Shown piece by piece: positions 11,097 through 25,378 of a stretch of DNA of 42,877 nt. The position numbers were made by a program, and so were the translations under genes. Source of the DNA: an uncultured Trueperaceae bacterium (GTDB taxonomy: Bacteria > Deinococcota > Deinococci > Deinococcales > Trueperaceae). Under the pieces are notes generated by a model. The model had not been told where the DNA came from. It saw only the letters and a program-made list of their open reading frames with translations, and searched no databases. Location: assembly GCA_913057685.1 (NCBI GenBank), contig CAJXOA010000017.1, positions 1-42,877 of the forward strand, in the 5' to 3' direction. Each line of letters begins with the position of its first letter. Position 1 is the stretch's first letter.

Positions 11097-12197
11097 GTGC
11101 CCGACCCGACCGCCCGCCGCGCACCCGACCCCAGCACCCGCGACCCCAGCAGCCACGACCCCGGCACCCACGACCCCGGCTCCCGCGAGCACGTCACCCT
11201 CGCCGACGTCGCCGCCCGGGCCGGCGTCTCCCCCATGACCGTCTCGCGCGTCGTCAACGAGCGCCCCGGGGTGGGCGACGCCACCCGCGCGCGGGTCCGC
11301 GACGCGGTCGCCGCCCTCGGCTACCGCCCCAACGTCGTCGCCCGCAGCCTCAAGCGATCGCGCTCGCACACCCTCGGCCTGCTCGTGCCCGACGTCACCA
11401 ACCCGTACTTCCCCGACCTCGTGCGCGGCGCGGAGGACGTCGCCTTCGAGGCCGGCTACACCCTGCTGCTCCACAACGTCATCGAGGACGCCGAACGCGA
11501 AGCGGCCGCCCTCGCCCTGTTCGAGGAACGCCGCGTCGACGGCGTCATCGCCGCCTCCCCCCGCCTCCCCGAGGACCGCCTGCACGCCCACCTCGCCCGC
11601 CACGGCGCCGCGGTCGTCGTCAACCGCCGCGCCCCCGCCGCCCTCGCCGGCTCGGTCCGCGTCGACCACGAGGCCGGCGCGGAGGCGGCGCTCCACCACC
11701 TGGTGCGCGGTGGGGCCCGCACCCTCGGGCTGCTCGCCGGCCCCGCCACCTCCCACGCCGGACGGGAACGCCGCCACGGCGTCGCCCGCGCCCTCGACGC
11801 GACCGGCGCGACGCTCCCCGACACGCGCATCGTCGAGGGTCCCCCGACGATCCCGGGCGGCGAAGCCGCCGCCCGCGACCTGCTCACGCGCCACCCCGAC
11901 GTCGACGGGCTCGTGTGCTTCAACGACCTGGTCGCCGCCGGCGCGCTGCGCGCCGCCGCCGCCCTCGGCCGCCGCGTCCCCGACGACATCGCCGTCGTCG
12001 GCTACGACGACATCGCCTTCGCCGCGATGTTCACGCCCGCCCTCACGACGCTGCGCGTCCCCACGTACGCCATGGGCGGGCACGCCATGCGGATGCTCCT
12101 CGACCGGATGGACGGCCGCCGACGCGACGTCGGCATCGTCGTCCAACCCGAACTCGTGATCCGCGACTCCACCCGCCCCGAGGAGGACCGCGCGTGA
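11097..12197 (+). CDS. LacI-family transcriptional regulator of the hexuronate locus
   Basis: The 366-residue protein has an unusual N-terminal leader of four five-residue repeats (DPSTR, DPSSH, DPGTH, DPGSR; DNA 11127-11186). The LacI helix-turn-helix (VTLADVAARAGVSPMTVSRV) and hinge helix (YRPNVVARSLK) follow. A periplasmic-binding-protein-like sensor domain begins at TLGLLVPDVTNPYFPDLVRG. The GTG start 11097 has a GGAGG site at 11084-11088. Its stop overlaps the GTG of uxaE by two bases, so it is the first gene of the catabolic operon. Two LacI-type operators in the divergent region would let it control both the TRAP genes and its own operon. The inducer is unknown; a ketouronate or aldonate of the pathway is plausible. 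Confidence 0.9.
   Translation: MPDPTARRAPDPSTRDPSSHDPGTHDPGSREHVTLADVAARAGVSPMTVSRVVNERPGVGDATRARVRDAVAALGYRPNVVARSLKRSRSHTLGLLVPDVTNPYFPDLVRGAEDVAFEAGYTLLLHNVIEDAEREAAALALFEERRVDGVIAASPRLPEDRLHAHLARHGAAVVVNRRAPAALAGSVRVDHEAGAEAALHHLVRGGARTLGLLAGPATSHAGRERRHGVARALDATGATLPDTRIVEGPPTIPGGEAAARDLLTRHPDVDGLVCFNDLVAAGALRAAAALGRRVPDDIAVVGYDDIAFAAMFTPALTTLRVPTYAMGGHAMRMLLDRMDGRRRDVGIVVQPELVIRDSTRPEEDRA
11127..11186 (+). repeat. Four 15-bp in-frame tandem repeats in the lacI N-terminus
   Basis: Four units of the form GACCCC(A/G)GC followed by six variable bases encode DP(S/G)(T/S)(R/H). They add a disordered 20-residue leader before the DNA-binding domain. Confidence 0.8.
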
Positions 12198-13750
12198 ACG
12201 ACCGACCGCCCCCCGACGACCCCCTGCTCCGCCGCGCTGCGCCCCACGCGGCGGCCGGGTATCCGCCCTCCCTCCGGCCCCTCCCCGGCGCGGACGGCGT
12301 CCGCCTCGCCGCGTGGCTGGAGGGCCCCGCCGACGCCCCCCGCCTCGCCGTGCTCGCCGGCGCCGACGACCCCGCCCTCGACGGCGGCGCCTGGACCGAA
12401 CGCCACCCCGACGGGGACGACCACGTCGTCGTGCGCGGCGCTGCGAACGCCGCGAACGCCGCCTGGCTCCGCGCCACCTGGGACGCCCTCCGGCCCCGCC
12501 CGCTCGGCACGTACGCCAGCGCGGGGTTCGGCGACCGGCTCGGGCTCGCGACCCCCGGGCACGTCCGCGCCCTCCGCACCGCCGACCCGAACGGCACGAT
12601 CCACCCGATCTACGCCCAACAGTCGATCCGCGAGATGGGGCGCACCGGCCGCACCCCGCAGGAGGTGATGGACGACGCCACCTGGGGCGCCTTCGAGGCG
12701 GGCCACGACGGGCCCCTCGGCGCGGACGCCGACCACCTCAAGACCGCCGACGACGTGCGTGCCACCGCCGCCGCGGGCTTCACCCTGTTCACGTTCGATC
12801 CCGGCGACCGCGTCGACGACGCCGCGGACGTCGCGACCGGCGGCGACCTCGACGCGAAGCTCGACGCGCTTCCCTGGGACGCCCTCGCGACGACGAAGGA
12901 CGACCTGCTGCGCCGCTACGGCGGCCGCACCCTCGATCTCGGCGACGTCGCGCTCAAGATCACGCACGAGGACGCCGCCCGCGCCGCCGCGAAGTACGGC
13001 GCCGCCCTCGCGCACGCCACCCACCTCCACGCCGCGCTGGAGGCGACCGGCGCACCGCACGAGATCGAAATCTCCGTCGACGAGACCGGCACCCCCACCC
13101 GCCCGGTCGAGCACGCGATCCTCGCCCTGGAGCTCGACCGCCTGCACCTCCCGGTCGTCTCCCTCGCCCCGCGCTTCCCGGGCCGCTTCGAGAAGGGCGT
13201 CGACTTCCGCGGGGACCTCGGCGAGCTCCGCGCCGCCCTCGCGCTGCACGGCGCCATCGCCGTGCACCTCGGGGGGTACAAGCTGTCGCTGCACTCCGGC
13301 AGCGACAAGTTCTCCGTCTACCCCCTCCTCGCCGAGGCGGCCGACCGCCGGATCCACCTCAAGACCGCCGGCACCTCCTACCTCGAGGCGCTCCGCGTCG
13401 CGGCCACGCGCGCCCCGGACCTCTTCCGCCGCATCCTCGCGACCGCCCACGCGCACTTCGAGCGCGACCGCGCCAGCTACCTGATCGGCGCCGACCTCGC
13501 CCGCGTGCCCGCCCCCGACGCCGTGGACGACGCGGCGCTGCCCGCCCTCCTGGACGACGACGACGCCCGCCAGGTGCTGCACGTCACCTACGGCTCCGCC
13601 CTCGACGCCCACCGCGACGCGCTCCGCGCGCTCCTGCACCGCGAACGCGAGGCGCACGCCGCCACCCTCGAACGCCACTTCGTCCGCCACCTCACGCCGT
13701 TCGTCGGCCCGACCGACGCCCCCGCGCCGCCCGCGAAGGAGTCCCCATGA
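12194..13750 (+). CDS. uxaE: Tagaturonate/fructuronate epimerase
   Basis: This 518-residue protein matches the UxaE family first assigned in Thermotoga maritima, which converts D-tagaturonate to D-fructuronate so that galacturonate and glucuronate share one downstream route. Recognisable family segments are NGTIHPIYAQQSIREMGRTG near residue 135, a KITHE block, the EIEISVDETGTPT stretch, FEKGVDFRGDL, and the strongly conserved YKLSLHSGSDKFSVYPL near 355-372. GTG 12194 overlaps the lacI stop and has AGGAGG at 12181-12186. The gene product acts in the cytoplasm after UxaC, encoded at the end of the same operon. The stop overlaps the next start as ATGA. Confidence 0.85.
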   Translation: MNDRPPPDDPLLRRAAPHAAAGYPPSLRPLPGADGVRLAAWLEGPADAPRLAVLAGADDPALDGGAWTERHPDGDDHVVVRGAANAANAAWLRATWDALRPRPLGTYASAGFGDRLGLATPGHVRALRTADPNGTIHPIYAQQSIREMGRTGRTPQEVMDDATWGAFEAGHDGPLGADADHLKTADDVRATAAAGFTLFTFDPGDRVDDAADVATGGDLDAKLDALPWDALATTKDDLLRRYGGRTLDLGDVALKITHEDAARAAAKYGAALAHATHLHAALEATGAPHEIEISVDETGTPTRPVEHAILALELDRLHLPVVSLAPRFPGRFEKGVDFRGDLGELRAALALHGAIAVHLGGYKLSLHSGSDKFSVYPLLAEAADRRIHLKTAGTSYLEALRVAATRAPDLFRRILATAHAHFERDRASYLIGADLARVPAPDAVDDAALPALLDDDDARQVLHVTYGSALDAHRDALRALLHREREAHAATLERHFVRHLTPFVGPTDAPAPPAKESP

Positions 13751-14277
13751 CCACGACCGCCACCACCCCCCTCGTCCGCCGCCTCGGTGCGGTCGGGATC
13801 GCCCTCGCCGTCGGCATGGCGCTCCCGTTCGCCGTGCACCTCGTCCCCGTCGAGGCCGGCCCGCCGATGGGCGCCCGCCTACTCCCGATCTTCCTCGCCG
13901 CCGGCCTCGCCGCGATGCGCCTCGACGCGATCTCCGCCCTGTCGATCGCGATCCTCACGCCGCTCGCCAACCGCCTCGTGACCGGCATGCCGGCCGGACC
14001 GATGCTGCCCACCGTCCTCCTCGAACTCGTCCTCGTCGTCGCGACGATCCTCGCGCTCCGCTACGGCCTCCCGCCCGCCGCCCGCACCCTCGCGCTGCGC
14101 CTGGCGCTGGCGCCCGCCTACCTCCTCGCGGCGGTCGTGACCGGCCTGGTGCTGGCCGGCGACGCGCCCGCCGCCACCCTCGCCTTCGCCTGGCAGTGGT
14201 CGTGGCCCGGCCTCGCGACCCTCGCGGTCGCCGGCGCCCTGTTCGCCCCCCGGCGGGGCGGAGCCCGCGCGGCGTGA
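13747..14277 (+). CDS. Small integral membrane protein, ECF S-component-like
   Basis: The 176-residue protein has five or six predicted membrane helices and little else. The pattern in the middle (LPIFLAAGLAAMRLDAISAL, then a loop with TGMPAGPMLPTVLLELVLV) resembles substrate-binding S-components of energy-coupling-factor transporters, where a PLxxxLxTGMPxxPM loop is common. It could bind a uronate or vitamin, or supply nickel or cobalt for the LarA-family enzyme two genes downstream; all of these are inference. No ECF ATPase or T-component lies nearby. It is coupled by ATGA to uxaE and by GTGA to the SDR, so it is a regular member of the operon and unlikely to be a chance ORF. Confidence 0.6.
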   Translation: MTTTATTPLVRRLGAVGIALAVGMALPFAVHLVPVEAGPPMGARLLPIFLAAGLAAMRLDAISALSIAILTPLANRLVTGMPAGPMLPTVLLELVLVVATILALRYGLPPAARTLALRLALAPAYLLAAVVTGLVLAGDAPAATLAFAWQWSWPGLATLAVAGALFAPRRGGARAA

Positions 14278-15095
14278 GCGGCGCCCCCTCCTTCGACCTG
14301 CGCGGACGAATCGCGGTCGTGACCGGCGGCACCGGGGTGCTGGGCGGCGCGATGGCGCACGCCCTCGCCGCCGCCGGCGCGCGCGTCGCGGTGCTCGGTC
14401 GCCGCGCCGACGTCGCGGAGCGCGTCGCGGGGGAGCTCACCGACGCCGGCGGGACCGCGATGGCGCTCCCCGCCGACGTCCTCGACGCGGACGCCCTCGA
14501 CGCCGCCGCCGCCACCCTCGCGGCCACCTGGGGCCCCGCCGACGTCCTCGTGAACGCCGCCGGCGGCAACCGCGCCGACGCGCTCGTGCACGGCGACGCG
14601 ACGCTGTTCGACCTCGACCCCGAGGCGTTCCGCGCGGTCGTCGACCTCAACCTGACCGGCACGCTCCTGCCGACCCGCGCCTTCGCGCGCGGCATGGCGG
14701 ACGGCGGCCGCGGCAGCATCGTCAACGTCTCCAGCATGGCCGCCCAGAAACCGCTCACGCGCGTCATCGGCTACGCCGCGGCGAAGGCCGGCGTCGACAA
14801 CCTCACGCAGTGGCTGGCGACGTACGCCGCGACCACCTGGGGCCCCGGCGTCCGCGTCAACGCCATCGCGCCCGGCTTCTTCCTCGGCGAGCAGAACCGG
14901 GCGTTGCTGACCGAGGCGGACGGCAGCCCCACCCCCCGCGGCCGGCAGATCCTGGACCACACCCCCATGGGGCGGTTCGGGGCCCCGGACGACCTCGCCG
15001 GCACCCTGCTGTGGTTGGCGTCCGACGCCAGCGCCTTCGTGACCGGCGTCATCGTGCCGGTCGACGGCGGGTACGCGGCGTTCGGGGGGGTGTGA
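14274..15095 (+). CDS. SDR oxidoreductase, probable fructuronate reductase (mannonate-forming)
   Basis: This 273-residue classical SDR has TGGTGVLGG as its cofactor loop, an NAAGG motif and the catalytic YAAAK. Proteins of this type, with the TGGTGVLG loop and a loop carrying LGEQNR before the C-terminal helices, include the SDR form of D-mannonate oxidoreductase. That enzyme reduces D-fructuronate to D-mannonate with NAD(P)H, and its position between uxaE and uxaC fits the step. The GTG start overlaps the upstream stop (GTGA) and gives a normal SDR N-terminus; the open frame upstream of it is a shadow. Substrate assignment comes mainly from context, and an altronate-forming activity cannot be excluded. 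Confidence 0.8.
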   Translation: MSGAPSFDLRGRIAVVTGGTGVLGGAMAHALAAAGARVAVLGRRADVAERVAGELTDAGGTAMALPADVLDADALDAAAATLAATWGPADVLVNAAGGNRADALVHGDATLFDLDPEAFRAVVDLNLTGTLLPTRAFARGMADGGRGSIVNVSSMAAQKPLTRVIGYAAAKAGVDNLTQWLATYAATTWGPGVRVNAIAPGFFLGEQNRALLTEADGSPTPRGRQILDHTPMGRFGAPDDLAGTLLWLASDASAFVTGVIVPVDGGYAAFGGV

Positions 15096-15096
15096 C

Positions 15097-16392
15097 GTGC
15101 CCCTCCCCGCCGGCGACCCGAACGCCCTCTACGCCCGCGCCGTCGCGGAGGCCGGCACCCTGCCGCCGGACACCGTCCGCGCGACCCTCGAAGCGGGCCT
15201 CGCGGGCCGCTTCGCCGGCCAGCACCTGCTGATCCTGATCCCCGACCACACCCGCAGCCTGCCGCTCCCGCAGCTGTTCGACGCCGCCGTCGACCTGCTC
15301 GACGACGCCGCGTCCCTGACCTTCATGGTGGCGCTCGGCACCCACCCGCCGCTCGACCCCGCCCGCCTCGCCCGCCTCGTCGGGCGCAGCGAGGCGGACC
15401 TCGCGGCGCTCGCGCCGCGGGTCCGCGTCGTCAACCACGATTGGGCGAACCCCGACGCGCTCGTGACCCTCGGGACGCTGTCCCGCGAGCGCATCCAGGC
15501 GATCGCCGGCGACCGCTGGCACCCGACGCTCGGCGACGGCGCGACCGTCCGCATCCAACGCGCGGTCCTGGAGCACGACGCGGTCCTGATCCTCGGTCCG
15601 ACCTTCCCGCACGAGGTCGTCGGCTACTCCGGCGGCCACAAGTACTTCTTCCCCGGCGTCAGCGACGGCGACATGATCGACGTCACGCACTGGCTGGGGG
15701 CGCTCGCCGGGGTGCGCCGCACGATCGGCGTGGCCGACACGCCCGTCCGCGCCATGATCGAGGCCGCCGCCGAGCTCGTCCCCACCCCGACGACGCTCGC
15801 GTCGATGGTCGTCGAGGGCGGCGACCTCGCCGCCCTGTTCGTCGGGCCGCCGTTCGACGCCTGGCGCGCCGCGGTGGCGGTGTCGTCGCAGCGGCACGTC
15901 CGCTGGGTCGACCGGCCGTTCCACACCGTGCTCTCGACCGCCCCCCCGATGTACGACGAACTGTGGACGGCGGGCAAGGCGATGTACAAGCTCGAACCCG
16001 CCCTCGCCGAAGGCGGCGAACTCATCATCTACGCCCCCCACCTCGAGGTCGTCAGTCACGTGCACGGCCGCTGGATCGAGGAGGTCGGCTACCACGTCCT
16101 GCCCTACTTCCTGGAGCAGTGGGACCGCTTCGCGCACGTCCCCCTGGGCGTCCTGGCGCACAGCACCCACGTGCGCGGCGACGGCGCGATGGTGGACGGC
16201 GTCGAGGTGCCGCGCGCAACGGTGACGCTCGCCTCGAAGATCCCGCCCGAGACCTGCGCGGCGTTGAACCTCGGCTACCGCGACCCCGCCGGCATCGACC
16301 CCGCCGCCTACCAGGGGCGCGAGGACGAGGGCGTGCTGTACGTCGAGAAGGCCGGCGAGACCCTCTACAAGTTGCGGGAGGACGCCGCGTGA
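15097..16392 (+). CDS. LarA-family nickel-pincer racemase/epimerase, candidate gluconate/mannonate 2-epimerase
   Basis: The 431-residue protein belongs to the lactate racemase (LarA) superfamily. PDHTR is at 49-53 and GTHPP at 81-85. The block from Pro171 to His198 contains His172, Lys182 and His198. Their spacing (10 and 16 residues) is the same as His174, Lys184 and His200 of Lactiplantibacillus LarA, where Lys184 tethers the nickel-pincer nucleotide; His83 would correspond to His108. The family includes characterised D-gluconate 2-epimerases besides lactate and malate racemases. Here it sits between a mannonate-forming SDR and a gluconokinase, so a mannonate-to-gluconate epimerase is the simplest role. 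It would need LarB, LarC and LarE, which are not in this window. It starts at GTG 15097, one base after the previous stop. Confidence 0.85.
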   Translation: MPLPAGDPNALYARAVAEAGTLPPDTVRATLEAGLAGRFAGQHLLILIPDHTRSLPLPQLFDAAVDLLDDAASLTFMVALGTHPPLDPARLARLVGRSEADLAALAPRVRVVNHDWANPDALVTLGTLSRERIQAIAGDRWHPTLGDGATVRIQRAVLEHDAVLILGPTFPHEVVGYSGGHKYFFPGVSDGDMIDVTHWLGALAGVRRTIGVADTPVRAMIEAAAELVPTPTTLASMVVEGGDLAALFVGPPFDAWRAAVAVSSQRHVRWVDRPFHTVLSTAPPMYDELWTAGKAMYKLEPALAEGGELIIYAPHLEVVSHVHGRWIEEVGYHVLPYFLEQWDRFAHVPLGVLAHSTHVRGDGAMVDGVEVPRATVTLASKIPPETCAALNLGYRDPAGIDPAAYQGREDEGVLYVEKAGETLYKLREDAA

Positions 16393-17399
16393 GCGGCGGC
16401 GAGGGCGGCCCGCCCGGCGGGGTGGACCTGCCCATGCGCCGCATCGCCGAACGCCTTCGCGGCGCGGACCTGCCCGACCCCGCGGACGTCGACGCGGTCG
16501 TCGCCGTCGCGCGGGGCGGCGTCACCCCCGCCGCGCTGGTCGCCTACGAACTCGACGCGCCGCTGCGGCGGCTGGCGCTCAACTACCGCGACGACGCGAA
16601 CGTCCCGCGCTACGACGCCCCGACCCCACAGGCGGACGTCCCCGACGTCGCCGGCCTACGCGTCGTGCTGGTGGACGACGTCTCGGTCAGCGGCGCGACG
16701 CTGCGCCGCGCCGCGGAGCTGCTGAACGCCGCGCACGTCACCACCGTCGCCTTCAAGGGGCGGCCCGGCGCGGCGGACGTCGTGCTGTTCCCCGACGTGC
16801 CCGACTGCGTCCGCTGGCCGTGGTTCGAGGACGTCGCGAGCGACGTCGACGCCCGCCCCCCCGGCGCGGACGGACCGCCCCGCGCGATCCTGCTGGCGGG
16901 CGTCTCGGGATCGGGCAAGACGACGGTCGGTCGCGCCCTCGCCGCGCATCTGGGGTGGGCGTTCGTCGAGGCGGACGACCACCACCCGCCGGCGAACGTC
17001 GCGAAGATGGCGCGCGGCGAACCGCTCGACGACGCCGACCGCGAACCGTGGCTCGCGTCGCTCCGCGCGGAGCTCGACGCGCACCTGGCGCGCGGCGAGG
17101 GGGTCGTCCTCACCTCGAGCGCCCTGAAGCGCCGCTACCGCGAGCGCCTGACCGGCGGCCGGAGCGAGGTCGCGACGATCCTCCTGCACGGCTCCGAGGC
17201 GCTCCTCGCCCGCCACCTGGCGGAGCGCACCGACCACTTCTTCGACCCCGCCCTGCTGCACAGCCAGCTCGCCACCCTCGAGCTGCCGGGGCCGGGCGAA
17301 CCGGCGCGCGTCCTCGACGCCGCCCCACCCCCCGACGTGCTCGTCGACCGCATCGTGCGCGAGCTCGGTCTCGCCCTCACGGAAGGAGACGCCCCGTGA
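16389..17399 (+). CDS. Phosphoribosyltransferase-gluconokinase fusion protein
   Basis: A single 336-residue frame holds two domains. Residues about 15-150 are a phosphoribosyltransferase, with the PRPP-binding loop VVLVDDVSVSGAT at 92-104 and an ARGG motif at 41-44, most like xanthine/hypoxanthine-type enzymes. Residues about 166-334 are a GntK-type gluconokinase. Its Walker A is GVSGSGKT at 171-178, followed by the substrate region DDHHPPANVAKMARGEPLDD, the TSSALKRRYRERL segment and HFFDPALLHSQLATLE. The kinase makes 6-phosphogluconate from gluconate. The linker (about 151-165) is Pro- and Asp-rich. The GTG start overlaps the LarA stop (GTGA) and the stop overlaps the uxaC GTG. I know of no established reason to join these activities. 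Confidence 0.85.
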   Translation: MSGGEGGPPGGVDLPMRRIAERLRGADLPDPADVDAVVAVARGGVTPAALVAYELDAPLRRLALNYRDDANVPRYDAPTPQADVPDVAGLRVVLVDDVSVSGATLRRAAELLNAAHVTTVAFKGRPGAADVVLFPDVPDCVRWPWFEDVASDVDARPPGADGPPRAILLAGVSGSGKTTVGRALAAHLGWAFVEADDHHPPANVAKMARGEPLDDADREPWLASLRAELDAHLARGEGVVLTSSALKRRYRERLTGGRSEVATILLHGSEALLARHLAERTDHFFDPALLHSQLATLELPGPGEPARVLDAAPPPDVLVDRIVRELGLALTEGDAP

Positions 17400-18841
17400 C
17401 CCCCACCCCACCCGCTTCCGGCGGCCTCCACCCCGACCGGGTCCTGCCCGCCGATCCCGGCGTCCGCGCGCTGGCGCGCGAGCTGTACGACGGCGTCCGC
17501 GACCTGCCGATCGTCGCGCCGCACGGGCACGTCCCACCCGCCCTGCTCGCCGACCCGGACGCCCGCTTCGGGACGCCCGCCGACTTCTTCATCGTGCCCG
17601 ACCACTACGTCTTCCGCATGCTCTACAGCCAGGGGGTGCCGATGGAGGCGCTGGGGGTCCCGACCCGCGACGGAACGGCGGTCGAAACCGACCCGCGCGC
17701 CATCTGGCGGACCTTCTGCGCGCACTTCCACCTGTTCCGTGGCACGCCGACGGGGCTGTGGATCCGAGCGGAACTGCGCGACCTGTTCGGGGTGGACGAC
17801 GCCCCGACCGCGGAGAACGCCGACCGGCTCTACGACGTCGTCGAGGCGGCCCTCGCGAGCGACGCCTTCCGGCCGCGGGCGCTATTCGAGCGGTTCGGCG
17901 TCGAGGTGCTCGCCACGACCGACGCGGCGAGCGACGACCTGACGCCGCACGCCCGCCTGCAGGCCGACGGCCTCCCGGTCGTCCCGACCTTCCGCCCCGA
18001 CGCCGCGATGCACCTGCACGCCCCCGGCTGGCGCGAGGAGGTCGACCGCCTGAGCGCCGCGGCGGGCGTCCCCATCGACGATCTGGACGGCTTCCGGACG
18101 GCGCTCGCGACGCGCCGGACGCAGTTCCGGGCGCGGGGCGCGCGCGCCAGCGACCACGGGATCGCGCAGCCGCACGTCGAGCCGCTCGACCCGGCGGACG
18201 CCCGCGCGATCTTCGGGCGCGGCCTCGCCGGCACCGCGACCGAGGCGGACGGGGCGGCGTTCCACGCGCACATGCTGTTCGAGATGGCGGGCATGGCGCT
18301 GGACGACGGGCTGGCGATGCAGCTGCACGTCGGCAGCTTCCGCAACCACCACGCGTCCGTGTTCGACCGCTTCGGGCTCGACAAGGGCGCGGACATCCCG
18401 GTGGCGGTGGATTGGACGCGGGGGCTGCACACCCTCCTGAACGCGTACGGGCGCGAGCCGGGCTTCCGCCTGATCCCCTTCACCCTCGACGAGGCGACGT
18501 ACGCCCGCGAGCTCGCGCCGCTCGCGGGGCACTACCCCGCCCTCCGCCTGGGGGCGCCCTGGTGGTTCTTCGACAGCGTCCTGGGGATGGAGCGCTACTT
18601 GGACCGCACGGTGGAGACGGCGGGGATCTACAACCTGGCGGGCTTCAACGACGACACCCGCGCCTTCGCCAGCATCCCCACCCGGCACGACGTGTGGCGG
18701 CGGGCGGTCGCCGCCTGGCTGGCGGGGCTGCAGGCCCGCCACCTGATCGACGACGCCGACGCCCCCGCGATGGCGCGCTGGTTGGCGTACGACGCGGCGA
18801 AGGCCGCCTACGGATTCGGCGAGGCCGCAGACGGAGCGTAG
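17396..18841 (+). CDS. uxaC: Uronate isomerase
   Basis: The 481-residue protein is the amidohydrolase-fold uronate isomerase that converts D-glucuronate to D-fructuronate and D-galacturonate to D-tagaturonate. Visible features are the metal-binding PHGH motif at 42-45, an FFIVPDHYVFRMLYSQG segment, EVLATTDAASDDL, and a C-terminal LGAPWWFFDSVLGMERYLD block, all characteristic of UxaC. The GTG start overlaps the kinase stop and is preceded by GGAAGGAG at 17381-17388. The longer open frame upstream is a shadow of the fusion gene. It performs the first intracellular step for imported hexuronates but lies last in the operon. A 9-bp stem begins at its stop codon. Confidence 0.93.
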   Translation: MTPTPPASGGLHPDRVLPADPGVRALARELYDGVRDLPIVAPHGHVPPALLADPDARFGTPADFFIVPDHYVFRMLYSQGVPMEALGVPTRDGTAVETDPRAIWRTFCAHFHLFRGTPTGLWIRAELRDLFGVDDAPTAENADRLYDVVEAALASDAFRPRALFERFGVEVLATTDAASDDLTPHARLQADGLPVVPTFRPDAAMHLHAPGWREEVDRLSAAAGVPIDDLDGFRTALATRRTQFRARGARASDHGIAQPHVEPLDPADARAIFGRGLAGTATEADGAAFHAHMLFEMAGMALDDGLAMQLHVGSFRNHHASVFDRFGLDKGADIPVAVDWTRGLHTLLNAYGREPGFRLIPFTLDEATYARELAPLAGHYPALRLGAPWWFFDSVLGMERYLDRTVETAGIYNLAGFNDDTRAFASIPTRHDVWRRAVAAWLAGLQARHLIDDADAPAMARWLAYDAAKAAYGFGEAADGA

Positions 18842-18901: not shown

Positions 18902-21667
18902 TCAGTCGCCGGTGCGCACCACCTCGAGCGGCACCGCGGTCGCCGCGTCGTCGCGGTCCCACCAGGGGCGGTCGGGGTCGACGGCGGGCGGACCGGCGGC
19001 CGGCGGGTCGCTCGCCGGGGCGGCCGGAGGGGTGAGGAGGCGCATGGGCGGCACCCCCAGGTCGGTGCGGACCTGCGCGCGGACCTCCGCGCGCGGGGCG
19101 GCACCGGGTCCACCGTTCGGTGCACCGTCCGGTGCGGCGACGGAGAGGGTGTAGCGGTCGACGACGCCGCGCTCGTGGGCGCGACTCACCCCGTCGTCCC
19201 ACGAAAGCTCCCCCGTGAGGCACCCATCGTCGTCCGGTAGGCCCCACCAGTCGACGCGGCTCCCCTCCGGCCACCCAGCGCCCCCACGCACGAGCGCTTC
19301 GCGGCCGTCGGGCCCGACGAGCGGGAGGGCGACGCCGGCCCGCAGGAACCAGGCGGGCGTCCCCAGTGGAGCCGCGGCCGTCACCCAGCCGTCGCTGCCG
19401 TCCACCCCGTCGCCGGCGTGCACGCGGCCGGTGGCGAGCTCCCACCAGCGGCCGGGCGGGAGGCGCACCGGGCGCTCCGTGACGCCGGGCTCGACGACCG
19501 GCGCGACGAGCAGCGCCGGCCCGAGCAGGTGCACGAGGTCCTCGCGGTGGCCGGGCCGCCACTCGGGGAAGGCGTAGGCGAGCGGGCGGACGAGGGGCGT
19601 GCCGTCGGTCGCCGCGGCGCGGAACGCGGTCGCGAGGTACCCGACCAGGCGGTCGCGGAGCGCCAGAAGCCGCCGCACCCGGGGTAGGACCTCGGGGTGG
19701 CTCCACGGTTCGGTGACGCTGCCGTCCTCGTTCCAGGAGTGGATGGTGAAGCGCGGCATGGTGACGCCGTGCTCGATCCAGCGCACGAGGAGGTCCGCGT
19801 CGGGCATCGGTCCGGCGAACCCGCCGACGTCGTGCCCGTACGATACCCAGCCCGACAGCGACAGGTTCAGGCCCTGCGGGACGTTGTAGCGCAGGGTGTG
19901 CCAGTCGGTGTGGTTGTCGCCCGTCCACGTCTGCGCGTACCGCCAGGTGCCCGGCATGCCGCTGCGCGTCAGCGTCCAGGGGCGGGCGTCGGGCGCGTGC
20001 TCCGCCTGCGCCTCGAACGACGCCTTGTTCATCAACGTCGCCAGGACCGGTCGCAGGCCGCGGGTCGGCCCGAGAGCGCTGCGCGCCCCGGGGTCCCAGA
20101 TCTGGTACTCGTTGTTGTCGTTCCAGGCGATCGTCGTGCCGACCTCGAGGATGCGTTCCTTGACGCGGGCCTTCCACCAGGCGACCGCCTCGGGGTGGCC
20201 GAAATCGAGGTAGCCGCCCTCGCCCCCCCAGAAGCGCGACAGGTACGGCCCGTCCGGATCGACGTCGTCGTCGTCGTCGAGTGGGATCCCGTCGCGCCGG
20301 CGGGTCCCGAGCGCCGCGGCGTTGCGGACCAGCAGCCCGCGCGCGGCGAGGTCGTCGAACTCCGGGTGGGTGGTCAACAACGCCGGTTTGAGGTTCGCGA
20401 TGCTGCGGATGCCCGCGTCGTTCAGGACGTCCAGGAGGGCGGTGGGGTCGGGGACGCGCCGGTCGTTCCAATGGAAGACGTAGCGCAGGCCGTCGTCGTG
20501 CAGCGAGTAGCCGCTGCTCAAATGGAGCGCGGCGGCGTGGATCTCGTGGCGTTCGAGGTCGGCGACGAACCCGCGGAAGGCGGCGACGGGGTCCTCGGCG
20601 TCGGTGTAGTGCATCGTCGACGCCAGGTACCCCAGCGTCCAGCGGGGCGGGACGGGCGGCGTGCCGGTCAGGTCCGCGAGGCGGTGCGCGACGTCCCCTA
20701 GGTGCGGGCCGGCCAGGAACCAGGCGTCCAGGCTCTCCTCCATCACCTCGAGGTGGCGGTAGGGCCCGTGGTAGTTGTCGACCTCCGCCCCGAGGTCGGC
20801 GAGGATGACCGCGCCGGAATCCACCAGCCACGACGACGCCCGCCCGTCCGGCGCGAGGGTCGTGAGGACCGGCAGGTGCTTGTACAGCGGGTCGCCGGTC
20901 TCCGCGTCGTACGCGAGGGCGTCGAGCGGGCGGAGGCGGAAGCGGCGGCGGGCGCGGTCCAGCGGGCCGGCGGCCTCACCGAGCCCGTAGAGGACCTCGT
21001 CGTCGTCGCGGCGCCAGTGCCAGCGGACGCCGCGGCCGGGCAGGTGCCCGTGCGCGCCGGTCGGCAGGTCGCGCCAGACGAGGGTGCCGTCGGCCCGGTG
21101 GATCGTGAGGGCGAAGGGGGCGAGGTCGACGCGGACCTCGAGCGCTGCGCTGCGCAGCGTGACGTGCGGGCGGCCCTCGCTCGGGTCGAGGTCCGCGTCG
21201 CGCGCGTCGAGGATCACGCCGTCCCCGTCCCCCTCCCCCGCGTGGATGGCGGGACGCGGGAAGCGCGTGAGGTCGTCGCGGTCGCGGCCCTCGTACGGCA
21301 CGTCGCCGCCCTCGCCCACGACCGTCCAGGTGCGCGCCTGCGCGGGCGTACCGGTCGGGTGGACCTCGAGGCGCAGCAGGTCGTGGTCGGCGAAGGTCAG
21401 CGCGGCGCGGGCGGGCCCGCTACGGGCGGCGAAGCGGATGGTGGCGCCGTCCACGCCCTCGACACGCAGGTGGCGGGTGGGGAGGCGGGCGCCGTGCACC
21501 CCCTCGCGGGGGGGCGGCCCGAGGCCGGTGGCCTCGGGCGCGCGCTCGCGCGCCCACTGGCGCGCGAGGCGCGCCGCCTCGTCGCTGGGACCGTCGCCAG
21601 GACCGTCGCCAGGACCGTCGCTGGGAGCACCGATGGGGTCGTCGCGGCGGGTCGGGTCGTCGTTCAT
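18902..21667 (-). CDS. Glycoside hydrolase family 31 alpha-glucosidase
   Basis: The 921-residue protein is a GH31 enzyme. After a disordered N-terminal 50 residues with GPGD repeats come the N-terminal beta-sandwich and the barrel (PPRWTLGYLASTMHYTD near 341-356). The nucleophile motif AWNDNNE has its aspartate at about residue 517. The downstream GHDVGGFAGP block is typical of GH31, and C-terminal beta domains follow (LLVAPVVEPGVTERPVRLPPG). It releases glucose from the non-reducing end of alpha-glucosides. There is no signal peptide, so it acts inside the cell on imported oligosaccharides. It is the last gene of an operon with two sugar permeases and their binding protein, 16 bp after the second permease. 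The exact linkage preference is not visible. Confidence 0.93.
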   Translation of the reverse strand: MNDDPTRRDDPIGAPSDGPGDGPGDGPSDEAARLARQWARERAPEATGLGPPPREGVHGARLPTRHLRVEGVDGATIRFAARSGPARAALTFADHDLLRLEVHPTGTPAQARTWTVVGEGGDVPYEGRDRDDLTRFPRPAIHAGEGDGDGVILDARDADLDPSEGRPHVTLRSAALEVRVDLAPFALTIHRADGTLVWRDLPTGAHGHLPGRGVRWHWRRDDDEVLYGLGEAAGPLDRARRRFRLRPLDALAYDAETGDPLYKHLPVLTTLAPDGRASSWLVDSGAVILADLGAEVDNYHGPYRHLEVMEESLDAWFLAGPHLGDVAHRLADLTGTPPVPPRWTLGYLASTMHYTDAEDPVAAFRGFVADLERHEIHAAALHLSSGYSLHDDGLRYVFHWNDRRVPDPTALLDVLNDAGIRSIANLKPALLTTHPEFDDLAARGLLVRNAAALGTRRRDGIPLDDDDDVDPDGPYLSRFWGGEGGYLDFGHPEAVAWWKARVKERILEVGTTIAWNDNNEYQIWDPGARSALGPTRGLRPVLATLMNKASFEAQAEHAPDARPWTLTRSGMPGTWRYAQTWTGDNHTDWHTLRYNVPQGLNLSLSGWVSYGHDVGGFAGPMPDADLLVRWIEHGVTMPRFTIHSWNEDGSVTEPWSHPEVLPRVRRLLALRDRLVGYLATAFRAAATDGTPLVRPLAYAFPEWRPGHREDLVHLLGPALLVAPVVEPGVTERPVRLPPGRWWELATGRVHAGDGVDGSDGWVTAAAPLGTPAWFLRAGVALPLVGPDGREALVRGGAGWPEGSRVDWWGLPDDDGCLTGELSWDDGVSRAHERGVVDRYTLSVAAPDGAPNGGPGAAPRAEVRAQVRTDLGVPPMRLLTPPAAPASDPPAAGPPAVDPDRPWWDRDDAATAVPLEVVRTGD
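21588..21623 (-). repeat. 12-bp in-frame tandem repeat in the glucosidase N-terminus
   Basis: Three units of GGACCGTCGCCA (the last one partial) encode repeated GDGP residues before the folded part of the GH31 protein. Confidence 0.75.
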
Positions 21668-21683: not shown

Positions 21684-22757
21684 TCACTGCTTGACGCCGC
21701 TCGAGGCGATGCCGGTCGTGATGAAGCGCTGCAGGAAGGCGAACACCATCGTGATGGGCAGCAGCGTCAGGACGGTCATGGCGAGGACGTAGTGCCACTG
21801 GACGTTCAGTTCGCCCTGGAAGGCGTTCAGGCCGACCTGGAGGGTGAACAGTTCGCTGCGGGTGAGGACGATCAACGGCCACAGGAAGTCGTTCCAGCGC
21901 CACATGACGGAGAAGATCGCCAGGACCGCCATCGCGGGGGCGGAGAGGGGGAGGACGATCTGCCAGTAGAGGCGCCACTCCGACGCGCCGTCGATGCGGC
22001 CCGCGTCGAGGAGTTGGTCGGGGATCGTGAGCATGTACTGGCGCAACAGGAACACGCCGGTCGGGGTCGCGGCCCCGGGGATGATGACGCCCCAGAGGTT
22101 GTTGACCCACCCGACCTCGGTGATGACGAGGTAGACGGGGACGAGGATCACGCTGAGCGGGATCATCAACGTCCCGATGATCAACAGGAACACCGCGTTG
22201 CGGCCCCGGAACTTGTACTTCGACAGCCCGAACGCCGCCATGCTGTTCGCGATCAACGTCACGATCGTCGCGACGACGGTGACGACGACGCTGTTGCGGA
22301 GGTAGGTCAGGAAGTTGAAGCGCTGCAGCGGATCGACGTAGTTCTCCCACGCGAGCCGCAGTTCGCGGACCTGTTCGCGCTGGTCGATGTTGACGGTGAT
22401 CGGCTCGCCCGGCGCGTCGGGATCCACCATCTGCGCTTCGATGCCGATGCGGCGGACCTGCGCCATGCGTCGTTCGGTGCCGTCCTCGAAGGTGACGTCG
22501 AACAGCGGGAGCGGTTCGTCGTACCCCTCGACCGGGACGGTCGTCTGGGCGTAGGGGAGCGCCGTCGGGGGGAACTCGAGGAGGCCGGCGGGGGTCTTGA
22601 AGCTGGAGGCGACCAGCCACAGCACGGGCCCGAACATCACGACGATGCCGATGGCGAGGTAGCCGTACGCCAACCAGTCGGTCAGGTGCATCTTGCGGCG
22701 GCCGTCCGGCCCTTTGCGGCCGCGCCGGAGTTTGAGGATCGCGCCGAGGCTACGCAA
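21684..22757 (-). CDS. Carbohydrate ABC transporter permease, MalG type
   Basis: The 357-residue inner-membrane protein has six predicted helices and the EAA loop LLDAGRIDGASEWRLYWQIV that contacts the ATPase. Compared with plain MalG-type permeases it has an extra external segment of about 60-70 residues between the first two helices (roughly 60-130, rich in Asp, Glu and Pro). It pairs with the MalF-type permease encoded just upstream. The TTG start at 22757 overlaps the upstream stop by 8 bases and gives the basic leader MRSLGAILKLRRGRK. An alternative ATG at 22691 (MHLTDWLAYG) is possible. No ATPase gene is in this operon, so a shared MsmK-type ATPase elsewhere is probably used. Confidence 0.9.
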   Translation of the reverse strand: MRSLGAILKLRRGRKGPDGRRKMHLTDWLAYGYLAIGIVVMFGPVLWLVASSFKTPAGLLEFPPTALPYAQTTVPVEGYDEPLPLFDVTFEDGTERRMAQVRRIGIEAQMVDPDAPGEPITVNIDQREQVRELRLAWENYVDPLQRFNFLTYLRNSVVVTVVATIVTLIANSMAAFGLSKYKFRGRNAVFLLIIGTLMIPLSVILVPVYLVITEVGWVNNLWGVIIPGAATPTGVFLLRQYMLTIPDQLLDAGRIDGASEWRLYWQIVLPLSAPAMAVLAIFSVMWRWNDFLWPLIVLTRSELFTLQVGLNAFQGELNVQWHYVLAMTVLTLLPITMVFAFLQRFITTGIASSGVKQ

Positions 22758-23781
22758 GGTGGGACTCGCTTCCGCGCGTGAGGCGCAACTGGATGAGGGT
22801 GATGATCAACAGCACGACGCCCAACGTCACCGACGCCGACGCCGCCAGCCCGAAGCGTTGGATCTGGCTGGCGAAGCCGACCTCGTAGATGTACTGCACC
22901 ATCAACAGCGTCGCGCTGCCCGGCCCGCCGCCGGTCAGGACGTACACCAGGTCGAACATCTGCACCGCCCGGATCATGGCGAGGACCAGCACGACGACGA
23001 CGTTCGGCATCAGGAGCGGGAGGGTGATGTGCCAGAAGCTCTGCAGCGGCCCGGTGCCGTCGATCGACCCGGCGTCGTACAGCTCCTTCGGGATCGACTG
23101 CAGGCCCGCCAGGAGGATGAGGGTGTGGAAGCCCATGTTCGCCCAGATGGTGACGACGATGATCCAGAACATCGACCAGTCGGCGTTCAACAGGAACAAC
23201 GTCCGGTCGAACCCGAGGCTGACGAGGATGCCGTTGAGGACCCCGTCGCGCTGCAGGATCCACTTCCAGATCAGACCCACGACGACGGGCGAGAGGAGGA
23301 CGGGATAGAAGTAGACGCTTCGGAAGAAGCCGCGCGCGACGATGCGGGCGTTGAGGACCAACGCGGTGATGAGGGCGAAGAACACGAGGCCGGCGACGTG
23401 GAAGGCGACGAAGGTGAAGCTGTTCCACACCGCCCGCCAGAAGAGGTCCTCGTTGCACGTCGCGGGATTCAGATAGTTACCGCAGGCGTAGATCTGTTCG
23501 AAGTTCTGCGTGCCGACGAACGGCCGCTCGAGCGGGTAGAGCGCCGTCCCGCCGGTGAAGGCGTAGTAGAAGTTCATCACCATCGGGAACAGGATGAACA
23601 CGCCGAAGATCGCAAGATTGGGGAGCAGGAACACCCACGGCATGCGGCGCACGCCGATGAGGCGTTGGATGGGTTCGATCACCCACCCGATGACCGTCAT
23701 GACGACGGCGAAGACCCCGAAGGCGGCGCGGCCCGGCGTGTACCGGCGCGGTCGCGGGGCGGGGGCGGCGGAGCGGTTCAA
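22750..23781 (-). CDS. Carbohydrate ABC transporter permease, MalF type
   Basis: This 343-residue permease has a long N-terminal region with one additional hydrophobic stretch (FGVFAVVMTVIGWVI). Six core helices follow, starting at WVFLLPNLAIFGVFILFPMV. It has the EAA loop ELYDAGSIDGTGPLQSFWHI and the conserved VYVLTGGGPGSAT turn of MalF/UgpA proteins. It forms the transmembrane channel with the MalG-type partner. The chosen start is TTG 23781, with a weak purine-rich site upstream. A short cysteine-containing external loop (ACGNYLNPATC) lies between helices, where a disulfide could form. Spacing to the binding-protein gene is 113 bp and holds a large hairpin. Confidence 0.9.
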   Translation of the reverse strand: MNRSAAPAPRPRRYTPGRAAFGVFAVVMTVIGWVIEPIQRLIGVRRMPWVFLLPNLAIFGVFILFPMVMNFYYAFTGGTALYPLERPFVGTQNFEQIYACGNYLNPATCNEDLFWRAVWNSFTFVAFHVAGLVFFALITALVLNARIVARGFFRSVYFYPVLLSPVVVGLIWKWILQRDGVLNGILVSLGFDRTLFLLNADWSMFWIIVVTIWANMGFHTLILLAGLQSIPKELYDAGSIDGTGPLQSFWHITLPLLMPNVVVVLVLAMIRAVQMFDLVYVLTGGGPGSATLLMVQYIYEVGFASQIQRFGLAASASVTLGVVLLIITLIQLRLTRGSESHLA

Positions 23782-23838
23782 GGGGGGCCCTTTCGGCGCG
23801 GCCGGGACGGTCGGTCCCGCGGGGGGCGCACGGGGAGG

Positions 23839-23877
23839 GCCGGAGGCCCGCCCCCTCGCGGGGGGCGGGCGTCCGGC
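23839..23877 (-). terminator. Intra-operon stem-loop between binding-protein and permease genes
   Basis: An inner perfect 10-bp stem (23846-23855 with 23861-23870) is extended by a 6-bp outer stem (GCCGGA 23839-23844 with TCCGGC 23872-23877). It follows the binding-protein stop and precedes the permeases. Such structures commonly lower downstream expression or protect the upstream message, giving excess binding protein. Confidence 0.6.
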
Positions 23878-23894
23878 CGGCGGTCGTCGTCAGT

Positions 23895-25169
23895 TTACTG
23901 GGCTTCGGCGATCTGTTCTTCGATGTCGCGTTGCATGCGATCGATCGCCTCGTCGAGCGTCAGCTCCCCGACGAACACCTGCGTGAGGCGGTCGCGGGTG
24001 GCGTCGAACACGACGCGGTTGTACTGGTAGCCCTGCAGCGCGTACGCCGCGTCGGCGAGCTTCGGCACCTCCGCCGCGAACTGCGACAGCGCCTCCTGCG
24101 TCGCGGGCAGGTCGGCGTCGAAATCGACGCCGCTCTCGGCGAGGCCGAGGTGACCGGGGATGAACAGCGTGCGGCCGTAGAACTCGCCGAGCTGCTCCTC
24201 CTGCGCCAGGAAGTCCATGAGGCGCGCGACCTCCTCGGGGTGGTCGGTGTCGGCGATGCCGACGAGCGCCGCGCCGCCGGGCATGCCGGTGCAGGTGCCG
24301 TCCGGCCCGCAGGGGTTCGGCACGGCCTTCCAGTCGAAGGCGTCCCCGATCAACTCGGTGAACTGCCCGATCTGCCAGCTGCCGGACATGTAGAGCGCCA
24401 CCTGGCCGTTGACGAACTGTTCGTTGCCGGCGACGTAGCTGCCCTGCGAACCGATCCACACGTCGGGGATCATGGTGCCGTCGGCGTGCCAGTCGACCAT
24501 GAGTTCCGCCATGCGGCGGAAGCCGTCGTCGGTGACGATGGGGTCGCCGTTCTCGTCGAAGTACTGCGCGCCCATGCTGATCGCGGGGCCGGCCAGGCGG
24601 TGTCCGGTGCGGTCCATCGCCATCGCGAAGACGCCGGTCGCCTCGGCCACCTCGTTGGTGGCTTCGGCCCAGTCCTCCCACGTCGCGCCCTCGCCGGGCA
24701 TCTCGACGCCGGCCTGCTCGAACAGGGTGGCGTTGACGTAGGGGCCGGTGACGGTCAACTGCGTCATGAAGCCGGGGATGGCGTCGGAGCCGTCGGCGCG
24801 CATCCAGTCGTGGAACGGCCCGAAGTTGGCGTCCCAGTAGGCGGGGTCGTCGAGGTACGGCCGCAGGTCCAGGAAGTACTCCTGCAGGCCGCCCAAGTCC
24901 GTGACGCGGGCGATGTCGGGGCCCTGCCCGCTGGCCAGCTGCAGCGGCAGCGACTCGAGGATGCCGCTCGAGTACGGCACGACGTCGATGACGACGTCGA
25001 TGTCGGGGTTTTCGGCCTCGAAGCGTTCGACGAGTTCGCTCATGACTTCGGATTCCGAGCCGTCGTCGTACCAGGTCATGCGCAGTTCGGTCTGCGCGAA
25101 GGCGGCGCCGGCCGCCAGGGTCAGGGCGGCGAGGAGCGCGGCGAGAAGACGTCGGGCGGACTGGGTCAT
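23895..25169 (-). CDS. Sugar ABC transporter substrate-binding protein
   Basis: The 424-residue secreted protein has a clear signal peptide (RRLLAALLAALTLAAGAAFAQ) and the family-1 solute-binding pattern: LVERFEAENPDIDVVIDVVP, LASGQGPDIARVTDLGG and a C-terminal helical region. It captures a sugar, presumably alpha-linked oligosaccharides given the GH31 gene in the same operon. ATG 25169 is preceded by GGAGG (complement of 25175-25179). The long open frame upstream to 26186 is a shadow of the nuclease gene. Two cysteines in PNPCGPDGTCTGMPGG may form a disulfide. It ends with TAA, unusual among its TGA/TAG neighbours. A good promoter is found 148 bp upstream. Confidence 0.92.
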   Translation of the reverse strand: MTQSARRLLAALLAALTLAAGAAFAQTELRMTWYDDGSESEVMSELVERFEAENPDIDVVIDVVPYSSGILESLPLQLASGQGPDIARVTDLGGLQEYFLDLRPYLDDPAYWDANFGPFHDWMRADGSDAIPGFMTQLTVTGPYVNATLFEQAGVEMPGEGATWEDWAEATNEVAEATGVFAMAMDRTGHRLAGPAISMGAQYFDENGDPIVTDDGFRRMAELMVDWHADGTMIPDVWIGSQGSYVAGNEQFVNGQVALYMSGSWQIGQFTELIGDAFDWKAVPNPCGPDGTCTGMPGGAALVGIADTDHPEEVARLMDFLAQEEQLGEFYGRTLFIPGHLGLAESGVDFDADLPATQEALSQFAAEVPKLADAAYALQGYQYNRVVFDATRDRLTQVFVGELTLDEAIDRMQRDIEEQIAEAQ

Positions 25170-25299
25170 GCCAAACCTCCAGGGGACGTTGTCGCCACGG
25201 GAAGGGGATCGTCCCCGCACGCCACCCCGTGGCGGTGGCGCGAGGGGCAACGGTCCACGACGCCAAGGGCCCGGGCGGACCCGGGAAACGACGTCTCGA

Positions 25300-25315
25300 C
25301 GCGTTGCGTTGAGGG
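25300..25315. promoter_or_regulatory. Operator-like imperfect palindrome near the binding-protein transcription start
   Basis: CGACGCGTTG lies within a 14-bp stretch that matches its own reverse complement at 10 of 14 positions with a central CG. It sits just downstream of the predicted -10 box. A LacI-family site is possible; the evidence is weak. Confidence 0.3.
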
Positions 25316-25316
25316 A

Positions 25317-25345
25317 AGTATCGTCCTTGGCGGCCGCCGCGTCAA
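25317..25345 (-). promoter_or_regulatory. Sigma-70-type promoter of the alpha-glucoside operon
   Basis: On the minus strand TTGACG (25340-25345) and GATACT (25317-25322) are separated by 17 nt. The leader to the binding-protein ATG is about 140 nt and includes a CCCGGG-CGGA-CCCGGG stem at 25270-25285. Confidence 0.6.
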
Positions 25346-25378
25346 GCACCGGCGACCGGGGAGGCGAACGGGGGTCCC

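Follow-up and report, generated by a model that had tools for sequence, protein, structure and literature searches.

A phosphoribosyltransferase-gluconokinase fusion in a Trueperaceae hexuronate operon and a possible cofactor-nucleotide role for its phosphoribosyltransferase family

Enzymes of the LarA type need a nickel cofactor, the nickel-pincer nucleotide (NPN), which is a pyridinium mononucleotide. The only route to this cofactor that we know of is the LarB-LarE-LarC pathway. Salvage from base to nucleotide is usually laid out as an importer-like membrane protein together with a PRPP-dependent enzyme. Within the LarA superfamily, an HEV loop and HW have been described for groups 18-20, and members of groups 19 and 20 convert D-mannonate and D-gluconate into each other (Desguin et al., PMC7583248). 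LarA also shares a Pfam clan, CL0471, with the DUF362 proteins (PMC11770544). Here we analyse a stretch of 42,877 nucleotides from an uncultured Trueperaceae bacterium, referred to as the window, in which a phosphoribosyltransferase (PRT) domain is fused to a gluconokinase (GntK) downstream of a LarA homolog.

The fusion protein is encoded by one uninterrupted frame, whose GTG start overlaps the stop of the LarA homolog gene as GTGA (Table 1). The original prediction had recognised a PRPP-binding loop and a complete GntK domain with its own Walker A motif in this frame, and both are borne out by curated profiles: the Pfam match (PF00156) covers residues 18-120 and lies above its cut-off, and the NCBIfam match (TIGR01313) covers residues 167-306 with 142 bits against a cut-off of 113.75. 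The PRPP loop reads VVLVDDVSVSGAT. An AlphaFold model of the fusion (pLDDT 87) matches the solved gluconokinases 4eun, 3t61 and 1knq (E ~1e-15), while its other half matches XGPRT/HGXPRT (E ~1e-8). From the profile score, the Walker A motif and the structural match, the C-terminal half is predicted to be a GntK-type gluconokinase that phosphorylates gluconate; by its PRPP-loop motif and fold the N-terminal half is a type I PRT, presumably a catalytic one.

Table 1. Features of the uronate operon and of the fusion protein, with positions in the window.
Feature	Position	Strand	Basis
LacI-family regulator	11097-12197	+	PF00356/PF13377
UxaE, tagaturonate epimerase	12194-13750	+	PF16257 9e-128
ECF-S-component-like membrane protein (Mem)	13747-14277	+	Homologs directly upstream of PRT genes; AF2 fold
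SDR, D-mannonate oxidoreductase (UxuB function)	14274-15095	+	NF006132 5e-109, over cut-off; GTG start overlaps stop of the Mem gene
LarA homolog, probable D-mannonate/D-gluconate 2-epimerase, group 18/20-like, HEV loop, HW	15097-16392	+	PF09861; closest solved structure 4nar
PRT-GntK fusion protein, 336 aa	16389-17399	+	Single open frame; same fusion in G001-G004 and G035
PRT domain, XGPRT-like family, residues 12-149	16422-16835	+	PF00156 7e-15; profile A1; PDB alignment to XGPRT; 57-member alignment
GntK-type gluconokinase domain, residues ~165-325, Walker A GVSGSGKT	16881-17363	+	TIGR01313 1e-41; closest solved structures 4eun, 3t61, 1knq
UxaC, uronate isomerase	17396-18841	+	PF02614 4e-71; NF002794 over cut-off

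A frameshift or assembly error as the source of the fusion is ruled out, since the frame is open and the same fusion is found in six genomes. All five genomes examined of the window's genus carry it, and G035, from another genus, carries it twice; these further copies are 64-89% identical to the window protein and free of internal stops. The fusion is narrowly distributed, and in a literature search of incomplete coverage no published description of the PRT-GntK combination was found, in keeping with the original prediction, which had named no established function for it. The same prediction had considered a regulatory relic. A relic PRT is excluded by residue conservation and by dN/dS values of 0.15-0.48 for the PRT half and 0.18-0.44 for the GntK half, with the LarA part alike, all of which indicate purifying selection. 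In the related genomes G016, G011 and G021 and in the f4 genomes, unfused PRT and GntK genes lie side by side; as part of our best explanation, the fusion would have arisen when two genes adjacent in an operon for uronate catabolism were joined, giving a bifunctional protein. By itself the fusion is a modest curiosity, and the association of the PRT with a transporter and with LarA is the more interesting finding.

The operon runs on the forward strand from the LacI-family regulator to UxaC in the order of Table 1, with several starts and stops overlapping. UxaC and UxaE would convert hexuronates to fructuronate, from which the UxuB-like SDR would form D-mannonate; the LarA homolog would then epimerise D-mannonate at C2 to D-gluconate, as its family and the published activity of GntE suggest, and the GntK half would, judged by its family, yield 6-phosphogluconate. 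The LarA homolog matches the hexonate epimerase model NF052594 with 1.6e-39 and 135.8 bits, below the cut-off of 500. The residues for NPN binding and catalysis (DxTR, GTH, H-SGGxK-H) are kept in 25/25 LarA homologs, one having GSH for GTH with the His retained. GntK belongs to the hexuronate route with or without the PRT, because it follows the LarA homolog in four loci that have no PRT there (L038, L040, L112, L113). A GH31 alpha-glucosidase-like protein (18902-21667, reverse strand) adjoins the operon, and an ABC sugar transporter lies beyond it (21684-26186).

Run against 111 Deinococcota genomes, a profile of the PRT gives E <1e-40 for family members and ~1e-11 for every other PRT, and so separates the two. 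The family is present in 22 of these, 16 belonging to the window's family and six to another, and in 35 of the 373 genomes from the order to which the Opitutae MAG L001 belongs; the plasmids searched held no relative. In 17 Deinococcota loci, from two families, the gene immediately upstream of the PRT encodes a LarA homolog, a different LarA group is found near it in G028 and G109 (L030 and L105), and a LarA homolog adjoins it in two genomes of the Opitutae order (L159, L169). GntK partners the PRT only in the hexuronate operon, fused or adjacent in about 15 loci, and PRTs lacking GntK stand beside LarA homologs in G029, G012, G028/G109, G477 and G115. In G029 the order is LarA-PRT-UxaC (L029), and this PRT is nested in the fused clade of the PRT tree, which means that GntK was lost here and the PRT retained. 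In six more genomes of the Opitutae order (L181-L186) genes for DUF362 proteins, some with TAT signals, follow the PRT directly, and they are nearby in three more loci.

The second recurrent neighbour is the small membrane protein. A gene of about 175 codons of the Mem type lies directly upstream of the PRT in L001, L030, L037 and L105; in the Opitutae order this holds for at least 26 of 34 loci. In the window, as in several related genomes, Mem is part of the PRT's operon. The AF2 model of Mem (pLDDT 89) has the ECF S-components ThiT, RibU and PanT as its nearest solved folds, with probabilities of 0.98-1.0 and modest scores (E 0.07-0.3, TM ~0.53), and the Pfam ECF S-component model gives a single weak match, at best E=0.005. 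In eight loci (L153, L157, L171, L173-L176 and L178) genes for TonB-dependent receptors lie at distances of up to about 4 kb from the Mem-PRT pair. In G028 and G109 a gene for an NMT1/THI5-like periplasmic binding protein (L030 3361-4344, and L105) is placed between LacI and the Mem-PRT pair, near a second LarA homolog. Taken over all these contexts, the functional partner of the PRT is probably the LarA enzyme together with the transporter, rather than GntK.

Across the whole bacterial family intact LarA homologs occur, and LarB and LarC are almost missing. Profile searches found LarA homologs in 30 of 61 relatives and LarC in two. LarB exceeded its cut-off in 2/111 Deinococcota genomes, G007 and G020, the same two that have LarC; in both, LarB, LarE and LarC are encoded in one operon. 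Both genomes are without the PRT, and G007 has LarA. All 22 Deinococcota PRT genomes carry a LarA homolog, and in none of them was LarC, or LarB above its cut-off, found, although control genomes gave matches. This absence applies to the Deinococcota carriers; in the Opitutae order the search covered LarC in G111 alone. In the 61-genome set LarA is present in 15/15 PRT genomes versus 15/46 others (Fisher, p = 2e-6, with independence inflated by kinship and shared operons), and in the Opitutae order in 19/35 versus 8/45 (Fisher, p = 8e-4, with shared ancestry ignored). A single inherited operon underlies much of the co-occurrence, so the Fisher tests overstate independence.

Neither is the association strict. 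Fourteen Trueperaceae genomes have LarA homologs and neither LarB/LarC nor the PRT, which rejects a strict requirement of LarA for the PRT: the PRT is not present wherever LarA lacks LarB and LarC. These genomes must therefore have another NPN source, or LarA homologs that need no NPN made in the cell. A strict tie of the PRT to LarA is likewise rejected in the Opitutae order, where 16 of the 35 PRT genomes have no LarA homolog and DUF362 neighbours account for only some of them. No larBEC genes were found near LarA in PRT-bearing or PRT-less genomes of that order, which makes the comparison uninformative, and no recurrent gene that would replace the PRT was recognised next to LarA in genomes without it. 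Across G000-G036, LarA homologs whose NPN residues are intact have a wide distribution that includes PRT-less genomes, and LarB/LarC occur in two.

We propose that the PRT serves nucleotide cofactor salvage. Mem would import a base, and the PRT half, acting independently of the GntK half, would join it to PRPP; the resulting mononucleotide would serve LarA-superfamily enzymes as a cofactor or its precursor, with NPN as the prime candidate. That the PRT has a cofactor-nucleotide role of this general kind is a plausible reading, though one we hold short of conviction. The more specific version, in which Mem and the PRT take up the base of NPN or of a precursor and rebuild the mononucleotide for LarA-type epimerases, and perhaps for DUF362 proteins, is offered tentatively. 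It is the simplest reading because the PRT's partners are of the LarA type, for which NPN is the cofactor, and the Deinococcota hosts lack LarB and LarC of the known NPN pathway; the Mem-PRT module would then be an NPN salvage system in genomes without LarB and LarC, and in the window's genus the PRT would have become fused to the gluconokinase of the pathway that it serves. An Rfam search gave no riboswitch as a clue to the ligand. NPN salvage was not found described, nor was an ECF-plus-PRT salvage pair of the Mem-PRT kind, in our incomplete search of the literature.

The product could instead be a nucleotide-type compound other than NPN that the PRT makes or salvages, either for uronate metabolism or for proteins of the LarA/DUF362 superfamily. 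In the bacterial family, genomes with LarA homologs and no LarB/LarC are common even where the PRT is absent. In addition, the well-supported DUF362-linked PRT clade (L181-L186) has Lys100 in place of Val or Asp and Asn123 in place of the base-contact Lys, a pattern that suggests another ligand for that clade and hence more than one ligand for the family. Against this, none of the listed NPN residues is missing from the LarA homologs. NPN is moreover the sole superfamily cofactor described in PMC7583248 and PMC11770544, and we consider a different product unlikely, though the strongest of the alternatives to NPN salvage.

In a second alternative, the PRT would salvage purines or xanthine, would have an importer of its own for the base and would lie in the uronate operon by chance. 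Purine PRTs and XGPRT are its closest solved structures, and coupling to an ECF-S-like importer would suit base salvage. The window's genome (G000, 98% complete) also has no protein with an AIRC domain (PurE or LarB) that we could find; de novo purine synthesis may be incomplete there, and purine salvage could matter. Among 57 aligned PRTs, Gly43, Arg67, Pro73, Asp97, Gly124, Cys140 and Pro144 are invariant. The PRPP loop (residues 92-104) is intact, with D97 in 57/57 and D96 in 56/57 members, and the base-contact Lys, K115 of XGPRT, is retained as K123 in 50/57; the fusion PRT itself has K123-G124 and P144-W145. Yet the general-base position of 6-oxopurine PRTs (D92 of XGPRT) is V100, being Val in 50 members and Lys in six, all of the latter one clade, and the position of the base-site Trp of XGPRT is the invariant Cys140 in every member. 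To the question raised at the outset, whether the PRT site is intact, the answer is thus divided: the PRPP loop is, and the general-base Asp is replaced. The pattern is that of a PRT which has kept PRPP binding and a base pocket and is, as far as its residues indicate, not a 6-oxopurine PRT. Because that Asp is Val, the loop motif alone is no proof of purine salvage, and the case from plain homology is weakened by the loss of both Asp and Trp. The window PRT reaches only 35 bits against a cut-off of 138 in the NCBIfam xanthine-PRT model, and the recurrent partners are LarA and DUF362 genes rather than purine genes. Purine salvage is on this evidence rather unlikely. With NPN salvage the missing general base would be compatible, because a pyridine nitrogen needs no deprotonation.

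A third possibility builds on the original prediction: the PRT domain would sense PRPP or a nucleotide and thereby control the kinase to which it is attached, or would link purine salvage with sugar-acid flux and pentose supply. The gluconokinase product feeds an established route to PRPP, the PRPP loop is intact and under selection, and the fused or adjacent arrangement recurs, all of which speak for this idea. It does not account for PRTs that stand, with no GntK, next to LarA or DUF362 proteins in several contexts independent of one another, for GntK beside LarA homologs in the four loci without a PRT, or for G029, which kept the PRT and has no GntK. PRPP sensing therefore finds no support, and neither does a coupling to purine salvage, given that the base-site residues of purine PRTs are not conserved. 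We regard this possibility as improbable, and the two halves presumably do not regulate each other. That the fusion is an accidental, neutral joining of operon neighbours whose PRT half is being lost is very improbable, for although the unfused adjacent genes show the fusion's origin, purifying selection acts on the PRT half as strongly as on GntK and LarA, and this half keeps the family-invariant residues.

If Mem and the PRT do salvage NPN, this would be the first case of salvage for the cofactor. It would explain how LarA functions in genomes without LarB and LarC and would suggest that DUF362 proteins, too, use a related cofactor. Even with another ligand, the family would represent a new and testable PRT specificity.

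With XGPRT (E. coli Gpt, 1a95-1a98) and the archaeal purine PRTs (1vdm, 4trb, 4z1o) the window PRT shares the type I fold, a PRPP loop with DD, the base-contact Lys and a C-terminal PW; it differs from them in the Val for Asp and Cys for Trp exchanges, in its genomic partners and in its sub-cut-off xanthine-PRT score. GntK/IdnK-type gluconokinases (1knq, 3t61, 4eun) have in common with the window protein a complete domain that includes the Walker A and GntK motifs, but normally stand alone at 160-200 aa, whereas here the kinase is C-terminal to the PRT. The D-gluconate 2-epimerase GntE of T. maritima (LarA superfamily groups 18-20, PMC7583248) has the same HE(V/S) loop, HW and NPN Lys and His; 4nar is the closest solved structure to the window's LarA homolog and the mannonate-to-gluconate step suits the operon, although the homolog scores below the NCBIfam equivalog cut-off and its genome has neither LarB nor LarC. 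ECF vitamin transporters with their salvage enzymes likewise place a small S-component-like membrane protein beside a one-step activation enzyme, as in the Mem-PRT pair, but the Pfam S-component score of Mem is weak. Finally, LarB-LarE-LarC works de novo from NaAD and was found among the Deinococcota searched only in G007 and G020, the two genomes noted above as lacking the PRT, yet this pathway, too, ends in a pyridinium mononucleotide for LarA, as we propose for the PRT.
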